Positions 1,182-31,609 of a stretch of DNA of 33,764 nt are shown piece after piece. The stretch covers positions 1 to 33,764 of the IMG/VR virus record IMGVR_UViG_3300031772_000159; one strand, given 5' to 3'. The stretch comes from a virus. The notes under the pieces were generated by a model, which made no database searches, had not been told where the DNA came from, and was given only the letters and a program-made list of their open reading frames with translations. The position numbers were made by a program, and so were the translations under genes. How positions within the stretch are numbered: the first letter of the stretch is position 1; every line of letters begins with the position of its first letter.

Positions 1182-2461
1182 GGTGTACTCAACCCCATTC
1201 GATTAAGTTCTCTTTTGACTCCGTTGAAACCATCATTGACGGTGATGTAGTTATTGACGGTTGTATTGCCACCACTCATGGCACGATTAGGGATTACCGT
1301 ACCGGACGCACCAAACGCCACCAGTTCAGGCCCGGATTCTCCGACTCGCATAAGTTGACCCGCACTAAATCGACCGCCGTTAGCGTAACCGCGAAGTCCT
1401 TCCTCCGATAGTCTGCCACCCTGTGAGGATGCACCTTCGAGATTCATAAATGCCTTTGTAATATCAATTGCGCTCTGCATGGCTTTAATCAGTGATTCAA
1501 TGATCGTAAGAGTCCCGTCAATGTAACCGTTTATATTCTGCATCGCAACTTGTATAATTGCAGACATTGCTGGCATTAACGGCTCTATGATTTTATACAA
1601 TTCCTGAAATATCTTTATCAGCCTATCGACAATCTGCCAAACCCGTGTAAAGGATTCGTTTGACGCGTCCATTGCCTTTGTGATAAACTCCTGTATCTGT
1701 GGCATGTTTGTTATAACGAAATCGAGAAATTCCTGAAGGTACGGCATAAGCCCAGCTGCTATTGATTCCTGCACCTCTCCGAATGAGTTCTTCAGAATTT
1801 CAAGTTGTCCGCTGAACGTCTTTCCTGCAGCTTCAGCAGAACCGCCAAATTCTTTCTGCAACTCCTGAAGTATAACAGCTTGCGCTCCTGCCATGTCTCC
1901 GGATTCCTGCATGGACGTGATCAGGTTTTTCTGTTCTTCTGTGAACGTTACGCCAACCCTGGTAAGTGCCGTTAAGCCCTCGGTAGGATTATTAAGAGCC
2001 TTTCCAAGCTGGATTGACGCTGCACTCATATCAGTACCTAGAGCGGTAGCCATATCCCCCGCAATCCTGACAGTATCATCAAACACGCCAGAACCGATGT
2101 TGGTAAACGTTAGCAATAGGTTGGACGTTTCAAGCGCAGCTTCAGCGGTAAACTTTGTGTTCAGTTGCATCTGATCAGCCAATGCTTTTACTTGTTGCGA
2201 TGTCACCCCGGCAGCACCACCGGTTGATTTTAACACTGCATCCAGTTGCGCGGTTTTGTCCTGGTACTCCGATAGGCCATCAACCCCGGCTTTTATATTA
2301 GCCACCAATATTCCACCAAGCGCAAGCCCAACGCCAGCAGCAACGGGACCAATCTTGCCAAGCGTCCCTGCAAACCCATCGGCCTTCTTTTCAACTTTAT
2401 CAATGGCTGGGCTTGCATTGTCTTTCATATCAACTACGCCGAATATTCTAAACAGTTCCAC
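1178..2461 (-). CDS. Tail tape measure protein, short
   Basis: This protein sets tail length and occupies the tail tube lumen. About 427 aa are encoded. The N-terminus is followed by a hydrophobic Gly/Ala-rich segment (GPVAAGVGLALGGILVA), then a helical TMP region with the family-typical FTAEAALETSNLLLTF and LGKALNNPTEGLTALTRVG, and a C-terminal Gly-rich tail (GGNTTVNNYITV) found in many Gram-positive phage tape measures. I chose GTG 2461 because AGAGGTG lies six bases upstream; the GTG at 2470 would leave no spacing to the same site. The start overlaps the upstream GT-type frame by 14 bases. At roughly 1.5 angstroms per residue it predicts a tail of about 60-65 nm, short for a siphovirus. 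Confidence 0.9.
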   Translation of the reverse strand: MELFRIFGVVDMKDNASPAIDKVEKKADGFAGTLGKIGPVAAGVGLALGGILVANIKAGVDGLSEYQDKTAQLDAVLKSTGGAAGVTSQQVKALADQMQLNTKFTAEAALETSNLLLTFTNIGSGVFDDTVRIAGDMATALGTDMSAASIQLGKALNNPTEGLTALTRVGVTFTEEQKNLITSMQESGDMAGAQAVILQELQKEFGGSAEAAGKTFSGQLEILKNSFGEVQESIAAGLMPYLQEFLDFVITNMPQIQEFITKAMDASNESFTRVWQIVDRLIKIFQELYKIIEPLMPAMSAIIQVAMQNINGYIDGTLTIIESLIKAMQSAIDITKAFMNLEGASSQGGRLSEEGLRGYANGGRFSAGQLMRVGESGPELVAFGASGTVIPNRAMSGGNTTVNNYITVNDGFNGVKRELNRMGLSTP

Positions 2462-2768
2462 TAACTTCACCTCTCAATCTATCTGAGATTGCATTCGCTT
2501 TGTCTCTTATGGCTTGCTTTTCTTCCTCTGTCAGGAGCCGTGACGCTTGCCCACTGTTCTTCACCTTTTCCATGTACTCCTGAAATGACATGTAGTCATT
2601 CTGTTCAGATAGCATACTCGCTATTCCGTGCATCAGTGACCCGTTCAGCCACATTTTAAAGTGCATATCCTCATGCTTGGCTTTGAATGCCTTCTCAACA
2701 AGTTTATATCCCGTTTCAATGTCCAGTGCTTGTATTGCGTTAAAGTCGCTGTAACGGCTCATCAGCAC
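2448..2768 (-). CDS. Tail assembly chaperone, T part (reached by -1 frameshift from the upstream gene)
   Basis: The position between the G-like gene and the tape measure, and the charged helical composition, match the T part of lambda-type G/GT chaperones. The only local start is a GTG at 2768 with no convincing ribosome site. The frame is open upstream through the T7 run at 2813-2807 of the preceding gene. A -1 slip there continues as YQSVGVDEIDIYDVLMSRYS with no stop, which gives a fused protein of about 232 aa. I therefore read this as the extension of the G-like gene and not as an independent gene. The chaperone binds the tape measure and helps tail tube assembly; it is usually absent from virions. 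Confidence 0.8.
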   Translation of the reverse strand: MLMSRYSDFNAIQALDIETGYKLVEKAFKAKHEDMHFKMWLNGSLMHGIASMLSEQNDYMSFQEYMEKVKNSGQASRLLTEEEKQAIRDKANAISDRLRGEVSGTV

Positions 2769-2779
2769 GTCATATATAT

Positions 2780-3145
2780 CTATCTCATCGACCCCAACGC
2801 TTTGGTAAAAAAACCAATCACCTGTTTTGAATCATTAAGCTTTGCAAACTCTGAGATCCACTGTTCCAGGTCTGCGAATGTCATTCCGCGAACTTCCTCA
2901 GACGTCTTGCCGGATACGGACGCCATCAACTCGACCACATCAACCTCACAGTTATCATATCCGGATAGCAGGATACCGATATAGTCCATGGCCTTGTCGT
3001 TAAGGATGCGTTTCTTTTCGTCAGCATCTTCAATGCCTTTCACCGATTCAGTTGCATCATTATACATTTTCGCCAGCTTTTCAACGCCGACCTTCTTGCC
3101 AATTCGCGCAATCTTAAACGTGTCACCGAAATTCAACGCTCTCAT
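2780..3145 (-). CDS. Tail assembly chaperone, G-like
   Basis: This 121-aa, mostly helical acidic protein follows the major tail protein and precedes the tape measure, the conserved location of lambda gpG-type chaperones. The segment ELMASVSGKTSEEVRGMTFADLEQWISEF resembles the Gram-positive phage G-like family. The last codons contain GGT TTT TTT ACC, a heptameric T slippery run at 2813-2807, nine codons before the TAG stop. Most ribosomes would make the 121-aa form and a minority the longer GT fusion. A terminator-like hairpin lies just upstream at 3161-3190, so its expression is probably below that of the major tail protein. Confidence 0.85.
   Translation of the reverse strand: MRALNFGDTFKIARIGKKVGVEKLAKMYNDATESVKGIEDADEKKRILNDKAMDYIGILLSGYDNCEVDVVELMASVSGKTSEEVRGMTFADLEQWISEFAKLNDSKQVIGFFTKALGSMR
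2807..2813 (-). promoter_or_regulatory. Programmed -1 ribosomal frameshift site (T TTT TTT)
   Basis: Seven consecutive T residues read in zero frame as GGT TTT TTT ACC. A -1 slip lets both tRNAs re-pair perfectly. The -1 frame is open from here to the stop at 2448, through the downstream gene. Conserved -1 or related frameshifting between the two chaperone genes is well known in dsDNA tailed phages. No strong stimulatory stem-loop was identified just downstream. Confidence 0.75.
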
Positions 3146-3160
3146 AGTTACCCCCGGGTA

Positions 3161-3190
3161 TAAAAATAGGGTGAGGTATAAACCCCACCC
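3161..3190 (-). terminator. Intrinsic terminator or attenuator after the major tail protein gene
   Basis: On the minus strand GGGTGGGG, loop TTTATA and CCTCACCC form an 8-bp stem with one mismatch, followed by TATTTTT. It lies directly downstream of the major tail protein stop and probably reduces read-through into the chaperone and tape measure genes. Confidence 0.65.
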
Positions 3191-3202
3191 CGTATTGAGT
3201 GA

Positions 3203-3724
3203 TTAAGCAGTCTCGTCAATGATGATGCTGTACGGCAGGATAGTAGCGGTGCTGTCCGTAGCGTGAGCCATAAAGCTGCAAGGAATAACAACTTCAGCTT
3301 TATCAGCAAATGACAGCGCGATCGGGCTGAATGCCAGCACGTTATCAAGCTTAATGCTTATGGCCTTGCCGTCTTTGGTGAATCCATCGAACTGGACATT
3401 CCCAAGATAGTCCGCGTCAACAATTGCAATGTCGCGCGTGAGCGTCTTGGTTGTAGTTCCTGCGATGTTCATTCCGCAAAAGATCTTCGCAAGGTTTGCA
3501 CTGGATGCCTGTAATGCGTTGATTGTCAGCACTGGCTCAGCAACGTCCAGTACCTTTTCACCCTTGATAGGAACCCTGCGTCCGTCAACCTCGATAGTCC
3601 GGACGGTATACCCATCTGTAAACTCACCGCCACGTACAAATCCGATTTCCAGCACTCCAGCAAGGCCCTTATCAAGCGTGAGTGTGCCGGTATCCAGCAT
3701 GATTTTAGTATAACTCTTTGCCAT
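3203..3724 (-). CDS. Major tail (tube) protein
   Basis: A beta-rich protein of 173 aa that should form the stacked rings of the tail tube. The start MAKSYTKIMLDTGTLTLDKG and the internal EIGFVRGGEFTDGY and LTRDIAIVDADYLGNVQFDGFT fit Gram-positive siphovirus tube proteins. It has the expected place: after the neck and terminator proteins and before the G/GT chaperones and tape measure. ATG 3724 has GGAGGTAACAC upstream. The following hairpin fits a gene that needs much higher expression than its downstream neighbours. Confidence 0.85.
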   Translation of the reverse strand: MAKSYTKIMLDTGTLTLDKGLAGVLEIGFVRGGEFTDGYTVRTIEVDGRRVPIKGEKVLDVAEPVLTINALQASSANLAKIFCGMNIAGTTTKTLTRDIAIVDADYLGNVQFDGFTKDGKAISIKLDNVLAFSPIALSFADKAEVVIPCSFMAHATDSTATILPYSIIIDETA

Positions 3725-12457: not shown

Positions 12458-13331
12458 CATTGTATTCCATAACGTTCGCTACTCGTTATGCGCTTTCGCT
12501 GCTCATAGTTTCCTATGAGATTAGACTATATCTTAGCCTTTAGGCTCCCGATGTTTCCACCCGCTTGGGTGTACTCTACTCACTTTTTCCCTTCGGTTTC
12601 TTTCGCGGGAAAGTTTTCGATAGTCGTTGAACTATTTCCTCTTTGGTTTTGAATGTATAGCTAAATACCCTTTTTTTATGTGTTTTCTCTTCACCTCTGG
12701 CAACCGCAAACAAATGACCTTGATTGTAACCATCCGCTTCTGCTTCGACCCCACCAAAGTATATCTTTTTAAGATTACCAGATGTATCATAACAGAATAT
12801 TTTCTTTGTTAGCGAATGGTCATTGTTTTCTTTTGGCGTAACCCATTCAAGGTTTTTGTAGTTATTGTTTTGCCTATTGCCATCAATGTGATTCACATGT
12901 GGTTTGGATTCTTCGTTTTTAACATATGCGGAAGCAACTATACGGTGCAACCTTAACGTGCTCATTTTACCGCCAATCTTCATAAGATAAGCGTACATGT
13001 AACCGCCAGTTTTAGGCACGGATTTTTTTATCCGTCTTTTGCCTTTAGTGGTAGAGCCGTAATTGCCGTAACTGTAAACCGTTCCGCATTTGCCGATGTA
13101 ATAAATAGGCATTACATCTTCGTATCCAGGTATTTCGCATATTTTCTTCATTGTATCACCTCCATAGTTATTATACCATGAATGCGACACACTTGGAACC
13201 ATTGAGTAATAGCTGCTGATTGCCCAATCCTGTTAATTTTCAAACCTTCACGCTTATCTTTTGGATTACGTTGTGGTTTAACAGGCTCTAAGGGGTTCCC
13301 AGCAATTAATCGGGTTAGGAGCCAAACATTT
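12458..13331 (-). other. Group I self-splicing intron in terL (874 nt)
   Basis: The 5' exon end GGAGCT pairs with the internal guide GGCTCC (P1) with the required U-G wobble at the splice site. GTTT just before the guide can pair with the 3' exon GAAC (P10). The intron ends in G (12458). Core elements are visible in order: P4/P5 region AATTGCTGGGAACCCC (13284-13307), GGGCAATCAGCAGC (13212-13225), R element GTTCAACGACTATCG (12618-12632), S element AAGATATAGTC (12524-12534; GACTAT/ATAGTC forms P7), and P9-type hairpins, one with a GAAA tetraloop (CTCATAG/CTATGAG). The insertion is in phase 0 and removal restores TerL. Confidence 0.93.
12576..13151 (-). CDS. Intron-encoded HNH homing endonuclease
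   Basis: A 191-aa protein with N-terminal IPGYEDV...YYIGKCGTVYSYGNYG (NUMOD4-like), HNH core LHRIVASAYV (68-77) and HVNHIDGNRQNNNYKNLEWVTPKENN (85-110), and a C-terminal NUMOD1-like DNA-binding part (KKIFCYDTSGNLKKIYFGG...). It cuts intronless terL alleles to spread the intron. I chose ATG 13151 because GGAGGTGATACA precedes it. A TATAAT hexamer lies at 13170-13175, but the -35 is poor. The 3' end of the gene overlaps the intron R element, so coding and RNA folding share sequence. Confidence 0.92.
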   Translation of the reverse strand: MKKICEIPGYEDVMPIYYIGKCGTVYSYGNYGSTTKGKRRIKKSVPKTGGYMYAYLMKIGGKMSTLRLHRIVASAYVKNEESKPHVNHIDGNRQNNNYKNLEWVTPKENNDHSLTKKIFCYDTSGNLKKIYFGGVEAEADGYNQGHLFAVARGEEKTHKKRVFSYTFKTKEEIVQRLSKTFPRKKPKGKSE

Positions 13332-14291
13332 AGCTCCATCACAGATTACATTTGCATCGTGCCAGTTCCGGTCCTTAATACGTTGTGCCATGTCCGTATT
13401 GGATATCTTGACACCGTACAGTTCACCGAATATATACAGCTTGCTGCGTGTATGGTCATAGTGCATCCGAACAAATGCTGAAGGGTCCACACTATAACCG
13501 AAGTCCATTCCTTGGCGTATGTTGTCGAACGCCTTGCACTCATCGTCTGTTATGGCACGGAATACTAGGTTGTCGAATGGTACTACCCCAGATCCGGTTG
13601 GTTCCCCAAGATACTCCCACCGATACCGCTGTTCGTTTCGTTCTCTGGTATCCTCTATCTCGTCAAGTAATTGCTTTGATAGGTGCGGATTGTCCCTGTA
13701 GTCTGACTGATGCACATAGGTATTGGCCGGTATAAACTGTGTTTCATATTTCTTGTTAAGCCAGTGGGTGCGTCTTTTCGGTGGGTTATATGATAAAAAG
13801 ACCTTGTAATCCATGCCATCTTTCAACTCTGCTCTTACGATAGAGTTAACAATTGTGGTTACATCGTCCTCTGACCTAAACTCAGCCACTTCCTCAATCC
13901 ACACATCAGCAATCGGATAATCAGCTGTCTTAATCGACTTGATTTTATGCGGATCATCAGCACCGTAAAACAGTATCTTTGTATTAGTAGGCGTGTATAT
14001 CAGTTCAAGAGGGCTCAACTTCTGCCTCCAAAACTGGCCTACCCCCAGGTAATCAATAGCCCACTTCAGCTGCTCAAATGTACTCTTTGCGTTGTACTTC
14101 TCCCACCGTCTGATTGCTATCCCATGGGACTTGTGCCTCATACGCCGTAGTATCATATCGATAGCTATGTGCGTTGACTTGCTAGAGCCACGTCCACCCT
14201 TTAAGACGTAATACAGATACGGATTTTTTATTGCTCCGTGGAATCCATGGAAAGCTGGCAATAGTTTATCACTTAGCTTTACGCTTATCAT
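13332..14291 (-). CDS. terL: Terminase large subunit, exon 1 (ATPase and first nuclease motif)
   Basis: The 320 residues before the intron hold the packaging ATPase: Walker A GGRGSSKST (32-40), Walker B IADVWIEE (127-134), coupling motif LSYNPP (166-171), and the start of the RNase H-like nuclease, GMDFGYSVDPSA with Asp263, and VICDGA with Asp318. Without splicing translation would run 18 codons into the intron (KCLAPNPINCW...) and stop at 13278, giving a protein lacking the last nuclease motif. The start overlaps the small terminase stop by four bases. Confidence 0.93.
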
Positions 14292-14662
14292 TTTACATCA
14301 TCCACAATCTGCACGGATACAGATGCCGTAACGTTGACGTTATCTGTAAACAGCTTCAAATACTTACCTAGCATTTCAAGCGACTTGTTAGCCCCTGCCT
14401 GATCAAACGTATCATCAGCCATACAACGTTCAGCAACGCTTTTAAATCCGTTTAGAACGTATTCTGCGGTGATTTGAGCATTATCTGATAGCTTCGCAAG
14501 TCTTTTATTAACTTCTGCCTGTATATTAACATTCGTTAACAGCCTAGAAGCTAATTGTGCAGCTGTTTTTTGAGAGTACCCAGCCCTGACAGCAGCAGCT
14601 GCTGCATTTTTATCAATCATATACTCATCGATAAAAGCACTCTGCTTTGGCGTGAGTTTCAT
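14288..14662 (-). CDS. terS: Terminase small subunit
   Basis: A 124-aa protein with the Terminase_2 / SPP1 gp1 type N-terminal helix-turn-helix: MKLTPKQSAFIDEYMIDKNAAAAAVRAGYSQKTAAQLASRLLTN, the KQxxFxxEYxxDxNxxxAAxRAGYS motif. The remaining helices form the oligomer core. It binds the packaging start site and hands DNA to TerL. The SPP1-like portal, MuF and terminase set suggests headful (pac) packaging, which agrees with a circularly permuted assembly. Confidence 0.92.
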   Translation of the reverse strand: MKLTPKQSAFIDEYMIDKNAAAAAVRAGYSQKTAAQLASRLLTNVNIQAEVNKRLAKLSDNAQITAEYVLNGFKSVAERCMADDTFDQAGANKSLEMLGKYLKLFTDNVNVTASVSVQIVDDVK

Positions 14663-14675
14663 TTGTAACCACTCC

Positions 14676-14840
14676 TTATAGTTTGCATCCGCAAATGGGA
14701 CACTGTTTAGATTTCATCATCCAGTAAGCCAGATAAAAGATACCACCGATCCCTGTTATGCACCAGAGCAGAAACCAGATCCAGCTGAATTTCTTTTGTG
14801 GTACTACGTCACGCTTACACAGTGGACAGTATGCCGTCAT
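14676..14840 (-). CDS. Small membrane protein with split zinc ribbon (54 aa)
   Basis: The product has CPLC near the N-terminus (residues 5-8), a hydrophobic segment (about 18-41, FSWIWFLLWCITGIGGIFYLAY), and CPICGC (47-52). This CxxC-membrane-CxxC order resembles LITAF-like or zinc-ribbon small membrane proteins known in phages and Firmicutes. GAAGGGGAAGAA precedes ATG 14840 and the gene overlaps its upstream neighbour by ATGA. Role unknown; it could affect the host envelope early in late expression. Confidence 0.75.
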   Translation of the reverse strand: MTAYCPLCKRDVVPQKKFSWIWFLLWCITGIGGIFYLAYWMMKSKQCPICGCKL

Positions 14841-14971
14841 TTCTTCCCCTTCTTTCTGCGCTTCAAAGCCTTATTCAGCGCCTCTCTTATTTGCGCGTCA
14901 CTCTCAGCGTCTTTCGTTGGTGCGTATATCTTCAGTAGGTTAGACGCAAATGTAGCCTGTTTAAGATTCAT
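14837..14971 (-). CDS. Small basic hypothetical protein (44 aa)
   Basis: First gene of the late block: MNLKQATFASNLLKIYAP followed by a helix and a very basic end (ALKRRKKGKK). It has a good ribosome site (AGGAGGTATAGAAG before ATG 14971) and ATGA coupling to the next gene. The basic tail suggests nucleic acid binding, but nothing more can be said. It sits directly downstream of the long structured leader, so its start is the first one the leader could control. Confidence 0.7.
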   Translation of the reverse strand: MNLKQATFASNLLKIYAPTKDAESDAQIREALNKALKRRKKGKK

Positions 14972-15039: not shown

Positions 15040-15420
15040 CGTTCAATAAACACAGTGTTTTCACTTATATACTCGATAGATTGGAGTGAGCGAAGGACAC
15101 AGTTCACCCTGACCACAAGCTAATATCTAGCTGTGCAGTCAAGGTGGTTATACTCAATGAGTTATCGCTCACTCGGTACACCTGTGTTGTCCATACCTAA
15201 ACCCTATAGATGATAACCAGTCCTATCACCAGTGTTTAAGCCCCAGGGTTGCCCCTCTGATCCCTCGTACCCTACCGTCTCCCGTAGTCGGTTCCGTTTT
15301 GGTCATCGGCGTAACACAGGTAATACCTCACAAAACGTGCCTGTTCTTTGTGCGTTGGGACAGTGACCCTTATACGTTTTTAAAGTGGGTACGGCATCCA
15401 CTGTAATCATATTAAATTTA
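15040..15420 (-). ncRNA. Structured leader or non-coding RNA upstream of the terminase genes
   Basis: About 590 bases (14972-15561) hold no gene in an otherwise packed genome. On the minus strand several stems form. The strongest is GAGTGAGCGA/TCGCTCACTC (15174-15165 with 15093-15084), enclosing a short ACTC/GAGT hairpin and a long coaxial arm made of CACCTTGAC/GTCAGGGTG plus CACAGCTA/TAGCTTGTG. Others are AGGG-GCAA-CCCT (15256-15245, GNRA loop) and GGTGATA/TATCATC (15230-15209). Two of these need G-U pairs on the minus strand where the plus strand would have C-A mismatches, so the RNA is most likely minus. The segment at 15188-15180 can also pair with 15321-15313 or 15102-15095. Confidence 0.55.
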
Positions 15421-15468
15421 CACAACCATTTTATAGCAAAGCTAACACAACCACAACGCCAGATATCT

Positions 15469-15558
15469 TGCACACAAATTATTACAATTGCCCAAAATTA
15501 TGCACACAAATTATCCCATCAGAAACTATAGACGCAAAATATTTTGCACATAAATATT
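15469..15558. repeat. Three direct repeats (TGCACACAAATTAT type) and a 14-bp palindrome
   Basis: TGCACACAAATTAT occurs exactly at 15469-15482 and 15501-15514, and a related TGCACATAAATATT at 15545-15558. A perfect palindrome, GCAAAATATTTTGC, lies at 15534-15547. Spacing is 32 and 44 bp. This looks like a binding region for a regulator, or possibly for the small terminase, at the head of the late block. Confidence 0.6.
15481..15509 (-). promoter_or_regulatory. Candidate late promoter
   Basis: On the minus strand TTGTGT (15504-15509), a 17-bp spacer and TGTAAT (15481-15486). The -35 falls inside one of the direct repeats, so a repeat-binding protein could control it. Transcription would begin near 15474 and give a leader of about 500 nt. 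The match to consensus is only fair, as expected for a regulated late promoter. Confidence 0.45.
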
Positions 15559-15561
15559 ACC

Positions 15562-15586
15562 AAAACAAAAGAGCCTTTACAGGCTC
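15562..15586 (-). terminator. Intrinsic terminator of the minus-strand early unit
   Basis: On the minus strand GAGCC, loop TGTAAA, GGCTC and then TTTTGTTTT, just after the stop of the gene at 15599. It isolates the small early unit from the late block. Confidence 0.8.
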
Positions 15587-15598
15587 AGTGTTATTTGA

Positions 15599-15967
15599 TC
15601 ATTCCGTCACCCCATACAACTCTCTCCATTTCGCTACAGCCTCTTCCCGTGTTTTAAAGCACAGGCCGTGGGATAGCCGCCATTGGTCATCCGGGCAAGG
15701 CACAAAAGTAACAAGATTTATCATTCCCGAATGAGGTGCAGGATAATAAAACATTTCTCCTTCTTTCGGCTTCCAAGGCAGCTTAGTGATCTCCATTCCT
15801 GCTATACCATGCCATGCAATACTGGACCATGTAATACCTACCGTCATTCCAGTATTTCGCATAATGCAACCAAGTTCGTCAATTTTGACACGCTCGCCTT
15901 CCAGTAAAAATTCTTCCCCAACCTCAACCCCAAACAATCCCGCAATTTTCTCTGCTGTTAGTTTCAT
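15599..15967 (-). CDS. Hypothetical phage protein (122 aa)
   Basis: I chose ATG 15967 (MKLTAEKIAGLFGVEVGEEF) because AGGAGGCAAA lies directly before it, and it overlaps the upstream gene by ATGA. The C-terminal half reads LPWKPKEGEMFYYPAP...WRLSHGLCFKTREEAVAKWRELYG. The last part, CFKTxEEAxxxWxxL, is a motif often seen at the end of small phage proteins of unknown function. No catalytic residues stand out. It is the last gene of the four-gene minus-strand early unit. Confidence 0.75.
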   Translation of the reverse strand: MKLTAEKIAGLFGVEVGEEFLLEGERVKIDELGCIMRNTGMTVGITWSSIAWHGIAGMEITKLPWKPKEGEMFYYPAPHSGMINLVTFVPCPDDQWRLSHGLCFKTREEAVAKWRELYGVTE

Positions 15968-16822: not shown

Positions 16823-16851
16823 TTGACATATCATTTTAATCATTATATACT
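16823..16851 (+). promoter_or_regulatory. Early promoter, plus-strand unit 1
   Basis: Consensus TTGACA (16823-16828), 17-bp spacer, TATACT (16846-16851). TGATA and TATCA half-sites flank the -35, so autoregulation by the adjacent helix-turn-helix protein is plausible. Confidence 0.88.
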
Positions 16852-31545: not shown

Positions 31546-31582
31546 TGCAGTACCCCCGGTGGTTTATATGTAAATTATATCA

Positions 31583-31609
31583 TAAAAAAGCAGGGGGCAT
31601 TAGCCCCCT
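31583..31609 (-). terminator. Intrinsic terminator between fibre and lysis genes
   Basis: On the minus strand GGGGGC, loop TAAT, GCCCCC, then TGCTTTTTT, directly after the stop at 31613. A TATAAT follows (minus strand, near 31573) but no good -35, so lysis genes may rely on read-through or a weak promoter. Confidence 0.88.

Follow-up and report, generated by a model that had tools for sequence, protein, structure and literature searches.

What role does a long gene-free stretch play when it lies just upstream of the terminase genes of a phage and folds strongly as minus-strand RNA? The locus belongs to an IMG/VR record consisting of one linear virus sequence of 33,764 bases, which was analysed whole and is referred to here as the window.

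Genomic context

On the minus strand, the terminase genes are followed by those for portal, capsid and tape measure. The minus-strand tail and lysis-type genes at 33.5-29.4 kb appear to continue this late operon if the genome is circularly permuted. The plus strand carries early or replication genes at 17.3-29.2 kb, and a near-consensus early promoter (TTGACA-17-TATACT, 16823-16851, plus strand) faces them. For TerL and portal, most of the nearest named relatives come from Firmicutes phages, with a top identity of 55.6% for TerL and 33-34% for portal; the virus appears to be a phage of Gram-positive (Firmicutes-type) bacteria.

TerL is split by a group I intron with an HNH homing endonuclease (ORF 12576-13202; window 12460-13325, minus strand). 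The Rfam Intron_gpI match inside TerL (12723-12502, 26.6 bits, E 1.7e-4) lies under the gathering score, and the second exon is the continuation in ORF 12460-12170.

Table 1. Features of the leader region and the late operon
Feature	Position	Strand	Properties
Intrinsic terminator upstream of the leader	15571..15586	-	GAGCCUGUAAAGGCUC + UUUUGUUUU; -10.4 kcal/mol
Three 24-nt direct repeats	15456..15555	-	Consensus TTTGTGTGCAnnATnTTGGGC; copies at 15555-15532, 15511-15488 and 15479-15456; observed similarity reached by 0/300 shuffles
Extended -10 promoter element (putative)	15428..15438	-	TGCTATAAAAT, poor -35; read from the sequence
Structured RNA core, 247 nt	15084..15330	-	z -5.4, 0/150 dinucleotide shuffles equally stable; model R1
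Domain 1	15175..15327	-	Closing helix 15327-15313/15188-15175; hairpins 15287-15272, 15256-15245 (GCAA loop) and 15241-15195
Domain 2	15084..15174	-	10-bp stem, small hairpin 15162-15152, 13+5 bp arm 15146-15105
44-aa ORF, first after the leader	14838..14971	-	pI 10.4, charge +7.5; AGGAGG ribosome site upstream
Terminase small subunit, TerS	14288..14662	-	PHROG 51, E 1.5e-33
Terminase large subunit, TerL exon 1 with read-in to intron	13278..14291	-	PHROG 3717, E 1.9e-64
Strong intrinsic terminator in late operon	3157..3191	-	-17.6 kcal/mol for 3191-3168; between ORF 3203-3724 and the next gene
Strong intrinsic terminator in late operon	31580..31609	-	-15.4 kcal/mol for 31609-31592; before lysis-type genes

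The predicted leader transcript

The gap from the upstream ORF, whose stop lies at 15599, to the ATG at 14971 measures 627 bp; the first-pass annotation had put it at about 590 bp. No minus-strand ORF within it exceeds 56 aa, and none is convincing. The terminator at the upstream edge of the gap is predicted to close off transcription of the preceding genes. It is followed by the three direct repeats, which are probable late-activator sites. An array of this motif is found at 15.47-15.55 kb alone, with no second array in the late region, which suggests one main late promoter. The adjacent TGCTATAAAAT element was missed by a consensus promoter scan, as is expected when a good -35 is absent, and such a sequence has the usual appearance of an activator-dependent promoter. 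The repeats and the extended -10 together indicate that the transcript probably begins near 15423, giving a predicted 5' leader of about 450 nt.

This leader would comprise about 95 nt of weakly structured RNA, the 247-nt core, about 110 nt more and a Shine-Dalgarno sequence in front of the 44-aa ORF. Next comes a small zinc-ribbon-like ORF of membrane type (14838-14677, minus strand), with two CxxC pairs and a hydrophobic central part; TerS, TerL and the rest of the late operon follow. A homolog search among phages gave no match for the 44-aa basic protein. The terminator scan of the minus strand from 15560 to the first ORF revealed no intrinsic terminator in the leader.

Fold of the RNA core

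The RNA structure of the core is well supported in silico. Its minimum free energy is -95.3 kcal/mol, and the most extreme z (-3.74) among 136 sampled grid windows on both strands fell in this region on the minus strand. The surroundings of domain 2 alone give a z of -4.8 (0/300 shuffles) and domain 1 gives -2.4 (3/300). The entire 451-nt region reaches just -2.0, because the flanks (15430-15330 and 15084-14985) fold unremarkably and the signal is confined to the core. The first-pass annotation had placed a structured leader on the minus strand, ahead of the terminase genes, with G-U pairs favouring the minus-strand RNA. Both points are borne out, the latter by a core energy of -76.8 kcal/mol on the plus strand against the minus-strand value above.

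The individual helices proposed at that stage were recovered. The 10-bp stem 15174-15165/15093-15084 directly adjoins domain 1, and the arm of about 17 bp that it was said to enclose is present as 13+5 bp with a 1-nt bulge; stem and arm have a pairing probability of about 1. The expected GNRA-capped hairpin carries the GCAA tetraloop, and the two further hairpins are found as well. The pairing 15321-15313/15188-15180 is likewise present and extends outwards (GGUAU/GUACC) into the closing helix of domain 1, about 14 bp long. Folding of the full leader gives the principal helices a pairing probability above 0.85, barring a few terminal pairs, and the two short hairpins about 0.7-0.77.

The proposal of an alternative state fared differently. 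An 11-mer was to pair downstream, crossing the main stem as a pseudoknot; GGACAACACAG, however, is not the complement of CTGTGTCC, which is GGACACAG. The best contiguous alternative, with 15102-15097, has 6 bp and -6.8 kcal/mol, against -18.6 kcal/mol for the main helix. Its probability is about 2e-4 in a nested model, which covers pseudoknot-free folds. Holding the switch segments free raises the core energy from -95.3 to -83.6 kcal/mol; this cost of about 12 kcal/mol exceeds the return of the alternative, and the main helix therefore dominates. A minor alternative pairing may occur. A short GGAC/GUCC contact could form alongside the main helix, a 4-bp match of this kind being often expected by chance.

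A ligand- or protein-controlled switch between two mutually exclusive states, as claimed earlier, thus appears highly improbable. AACACAG is formally able to pair with other CUGUGU copies of the leader; the energies, the alternative probability and the absence of an expression platform (terminator) from the leader argue against such a switch. The riboswitch or attenuator reading found no support, for the same reasons and because the ribosome site of the 44-aa ORF is only partly paired in the full-leader folding. A classical attenuator would need a terminator inside the leader and is accordingly unlikely.

Search for relatives

No known RNA family was found to fit the leader RNA. No family of Rfam 15, including GOLLD, ROOL and OLE, matched at the gathering threshold. 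The relaxed search gave at best HgcC with 15.6 bits (threshold 50) and Ocean-VII with 9.3 bits (threshold 53.5); similarity to HgcC was rejected, the score being far under threshold. The earlier suggestion of an RNA of the GOLLD or ROOL kind thus found no match in either search.

DNA similarity searches by blastn (near relatives in phages, distant ones in phages and plasmids) yielded nothing credible. Two distant matches had E about 0.9 and lay within hypothetical genes. Exact DNA probes of 16, 15 and 14 bases found matches without surrounding sequence. R1, a covariance model built from the core as a single sequence, gave no credible match over 48 whole viral records. Blastn or nhmmer together with R1 also gave nothing credible at the loci of TerS, TerL, TerL-alignment, capsid and upstream-gene relatives in viral contigs. 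The same holds for R1 over Firmicutes-type bacteria, in about 1,450 genome scans of overlapping samples covering at most about 1,150 distinct genomes. Four weak R1 matches were judged to be due to chance: L157 (17.6 bits, one hairpin), L186 (15.3 bits), L209 (14.1 bits, a terminator hairpin) and L245 (18.5 bits, chromosomal). The long gap before terS in L003 contains small genes on the opposite strand and shows no significant folding. The terminase relatives do without the core element. With no homolog found, the stems have no support from covariation. R1 being derived from one sequence, its failure to find relatives is weak evidence that none exist. The element either occurs solely in close kin outside the searched collections or has diverged beyond the reach of a model built on one sequence.

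Other features were seen in relatives. Upstream of terS, one terminase relative (L077:2054-2328) has a strongly folded gene-free cassette of about 275 nt with its own terminator at the end; a sigma-factor-like gene and a short ORF flank the cassette, which has no Rfam match. Paenibacillus phage PG1 precisely lacks this cassette and has TTTT at the junction, which reflects either insertion in one phage or deletion in the other. In distant relatives, tRNA genes occur in the gap upstream of the terminase genes (L025:2231-2313; L097:2560-2646 and 2748-2820). In Eggerthella phage PMBT5, whose capsid protein is related, an unannotated gap of 685 nt precedes a structural gene (L193:8756-9441); R1 has no match there.

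Comparison with known systems

The HK022 put element, found downstream of early promoters, functions solely as an RNA (PMC9378689). It is about 70 nt long, forms two stem-loops and belongs to a lambdoid phage, whose early genes it serves (PMC9378689). Put acts in cis, through the zinc-binding domain of the RNA polymerase beta' subunit, to suppress termination. The leader studied here would resemble put in being a folded nascent RNA that acts in cis close to the beginning of a phage operon with terminators to pass. It is set apart by size and fold description, the core having 247 nt and a multi-branched form, and by its place in the late operon of a Firmicutes-type phage. EAR is cited in PMC8955417 as an RNA anti-terminator of Gram-positive bacteria; its setting is the Bacillus exopolysaccharide operons, and the present leader has no Rfam match. 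ConAn combines RNA and protein at the start of operons with many terminators (PMC8955417). The likeness to conAn of plasmid pLS20 (ConAn1 protein and conAn2 RNA) consists in the placement at the head of a long operon on a Gram-positive mobile element, the internal terminators and the small gene nearby. The operon downstream of the leader holds two strong internal intrinsic terminators, as a conAn-like system would, whereas pLS20 has more than 20. When R1 was run with filters off against pLS20 1900-3600 (one conAn plasmid and a single-sequence model), the best score was 3 bits; with no structure-profile similarity to the leader, this region was discounted as a relative.

Many GOLLD RNAs exceed 800 nt (PMC12286853), and GOLLD and ROOL are often found near tRNA islands (PMC12286853). 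The present RNA shares with them the character of a large structured phage RNA and differs in size and context, no tRNA genes having been found in the 33,764-base window. The staphylococcal phage cabRNA, of about 400 nt, is also a structured RNA from the terminase region; it lies within the terS-terL genes (PMC10686824), whereas the RNA described here is in a non-coding leader.

Possible functions of the leader

The reading tentatively preferred here, at less than even confidence, is a cis-acting anti-termination leader that would modify RNA polymerase so that it passes the two internal terminators of the late operon. Anti-termination had been among the options of the first-pass annotation; it stands as the best-fitting functional class, while the function itself is something that we infer. 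An activator bound at the three repeats would switch on the extended -10 promoter, and the first 450 nt or so of RNA would include the two-domain fold. The nascent RNA, once folded, would bind the elongating polymerase, perhaps together with the 44-aa basic protein, and the modified enzyme would read through both terminators. It is rather unlikely that the leader represents an undescribed class of large RNA which, alone or with the 44-aa protein, is the late-gene processive anti-terminator of a Firmicutes-type phage.

To express the tape measure and lysis genes, polymerase that started at the late promoter has to get past two terminators, barring secondary promoters, and processive anti-termination fits this arrangement best. 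Both terminators lie between genes on the transcribed strand, the leader itself has none, and its position at the start of a long operon is that of known processive systems (put, conAn). The core z, helix probabilities near 1, the minus-strand bias, the upstream terminator and the repeats argue in the same direction. The absence of a homolog, of an Rfam match and of similarity to pLS20 conAn speaks against anti-termination, as do the terminase relatives that manage without the element and the lack of a known relative of the 44-aa protein. The two terminators could also merely tune expression, and terminator-like sites are not enriched overall on the minus strand.

The same very stable helices, within a 5' UTR that has a partly paired ribosome site and no terminator, would also suit a leader that shields the late mRNA against decay or adjusts how well the first genes are translated, while leaving polymerase untouched. 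This is possible, if doubtful: the stable fold begins about 95 nt after the predicted 5' end and stops about 110 nt short of the start codon, distant from both usual points of action, and its multi-branched form exceeds what stability needs. A processed, trans-acting phage ncRNA working in the manner of GOLLD or ROOL is quite unlikely. The large multi-domain fold, the lack of evident coding and a position that predicts late expression would agree with it; against it, neither a terminator nor a processing signal is seen from the core to the ORF, and the RNA is shorter than GOLLD and unmatched by Rfam models. Packaging sites are often found just upstream of terS, and the location of the stretch would therefore accord with a DNA-level element, a cos/pac site or an origin with dyads recognised as DNA. 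Such an element is nevertheless very improbable, since the minus-strand RNA, owing to its G-U pairs, folds much more stably than the plus strand and the multi-branched fold is unlike simple operator dyads.

Significance

To our knowledge, only a few systems of RNA-based anti-termination are known (HK022 put, EAR and conAn). If the leader served mRNA stability only, its significance would be modest. If the anti-termination reading is true, a large RNA leader steering the late operon would represent a new form of late-gene control in a phage of a Gram-positive host, and it would offer a compact system for studying the modification of polymerase by nascent RNA.
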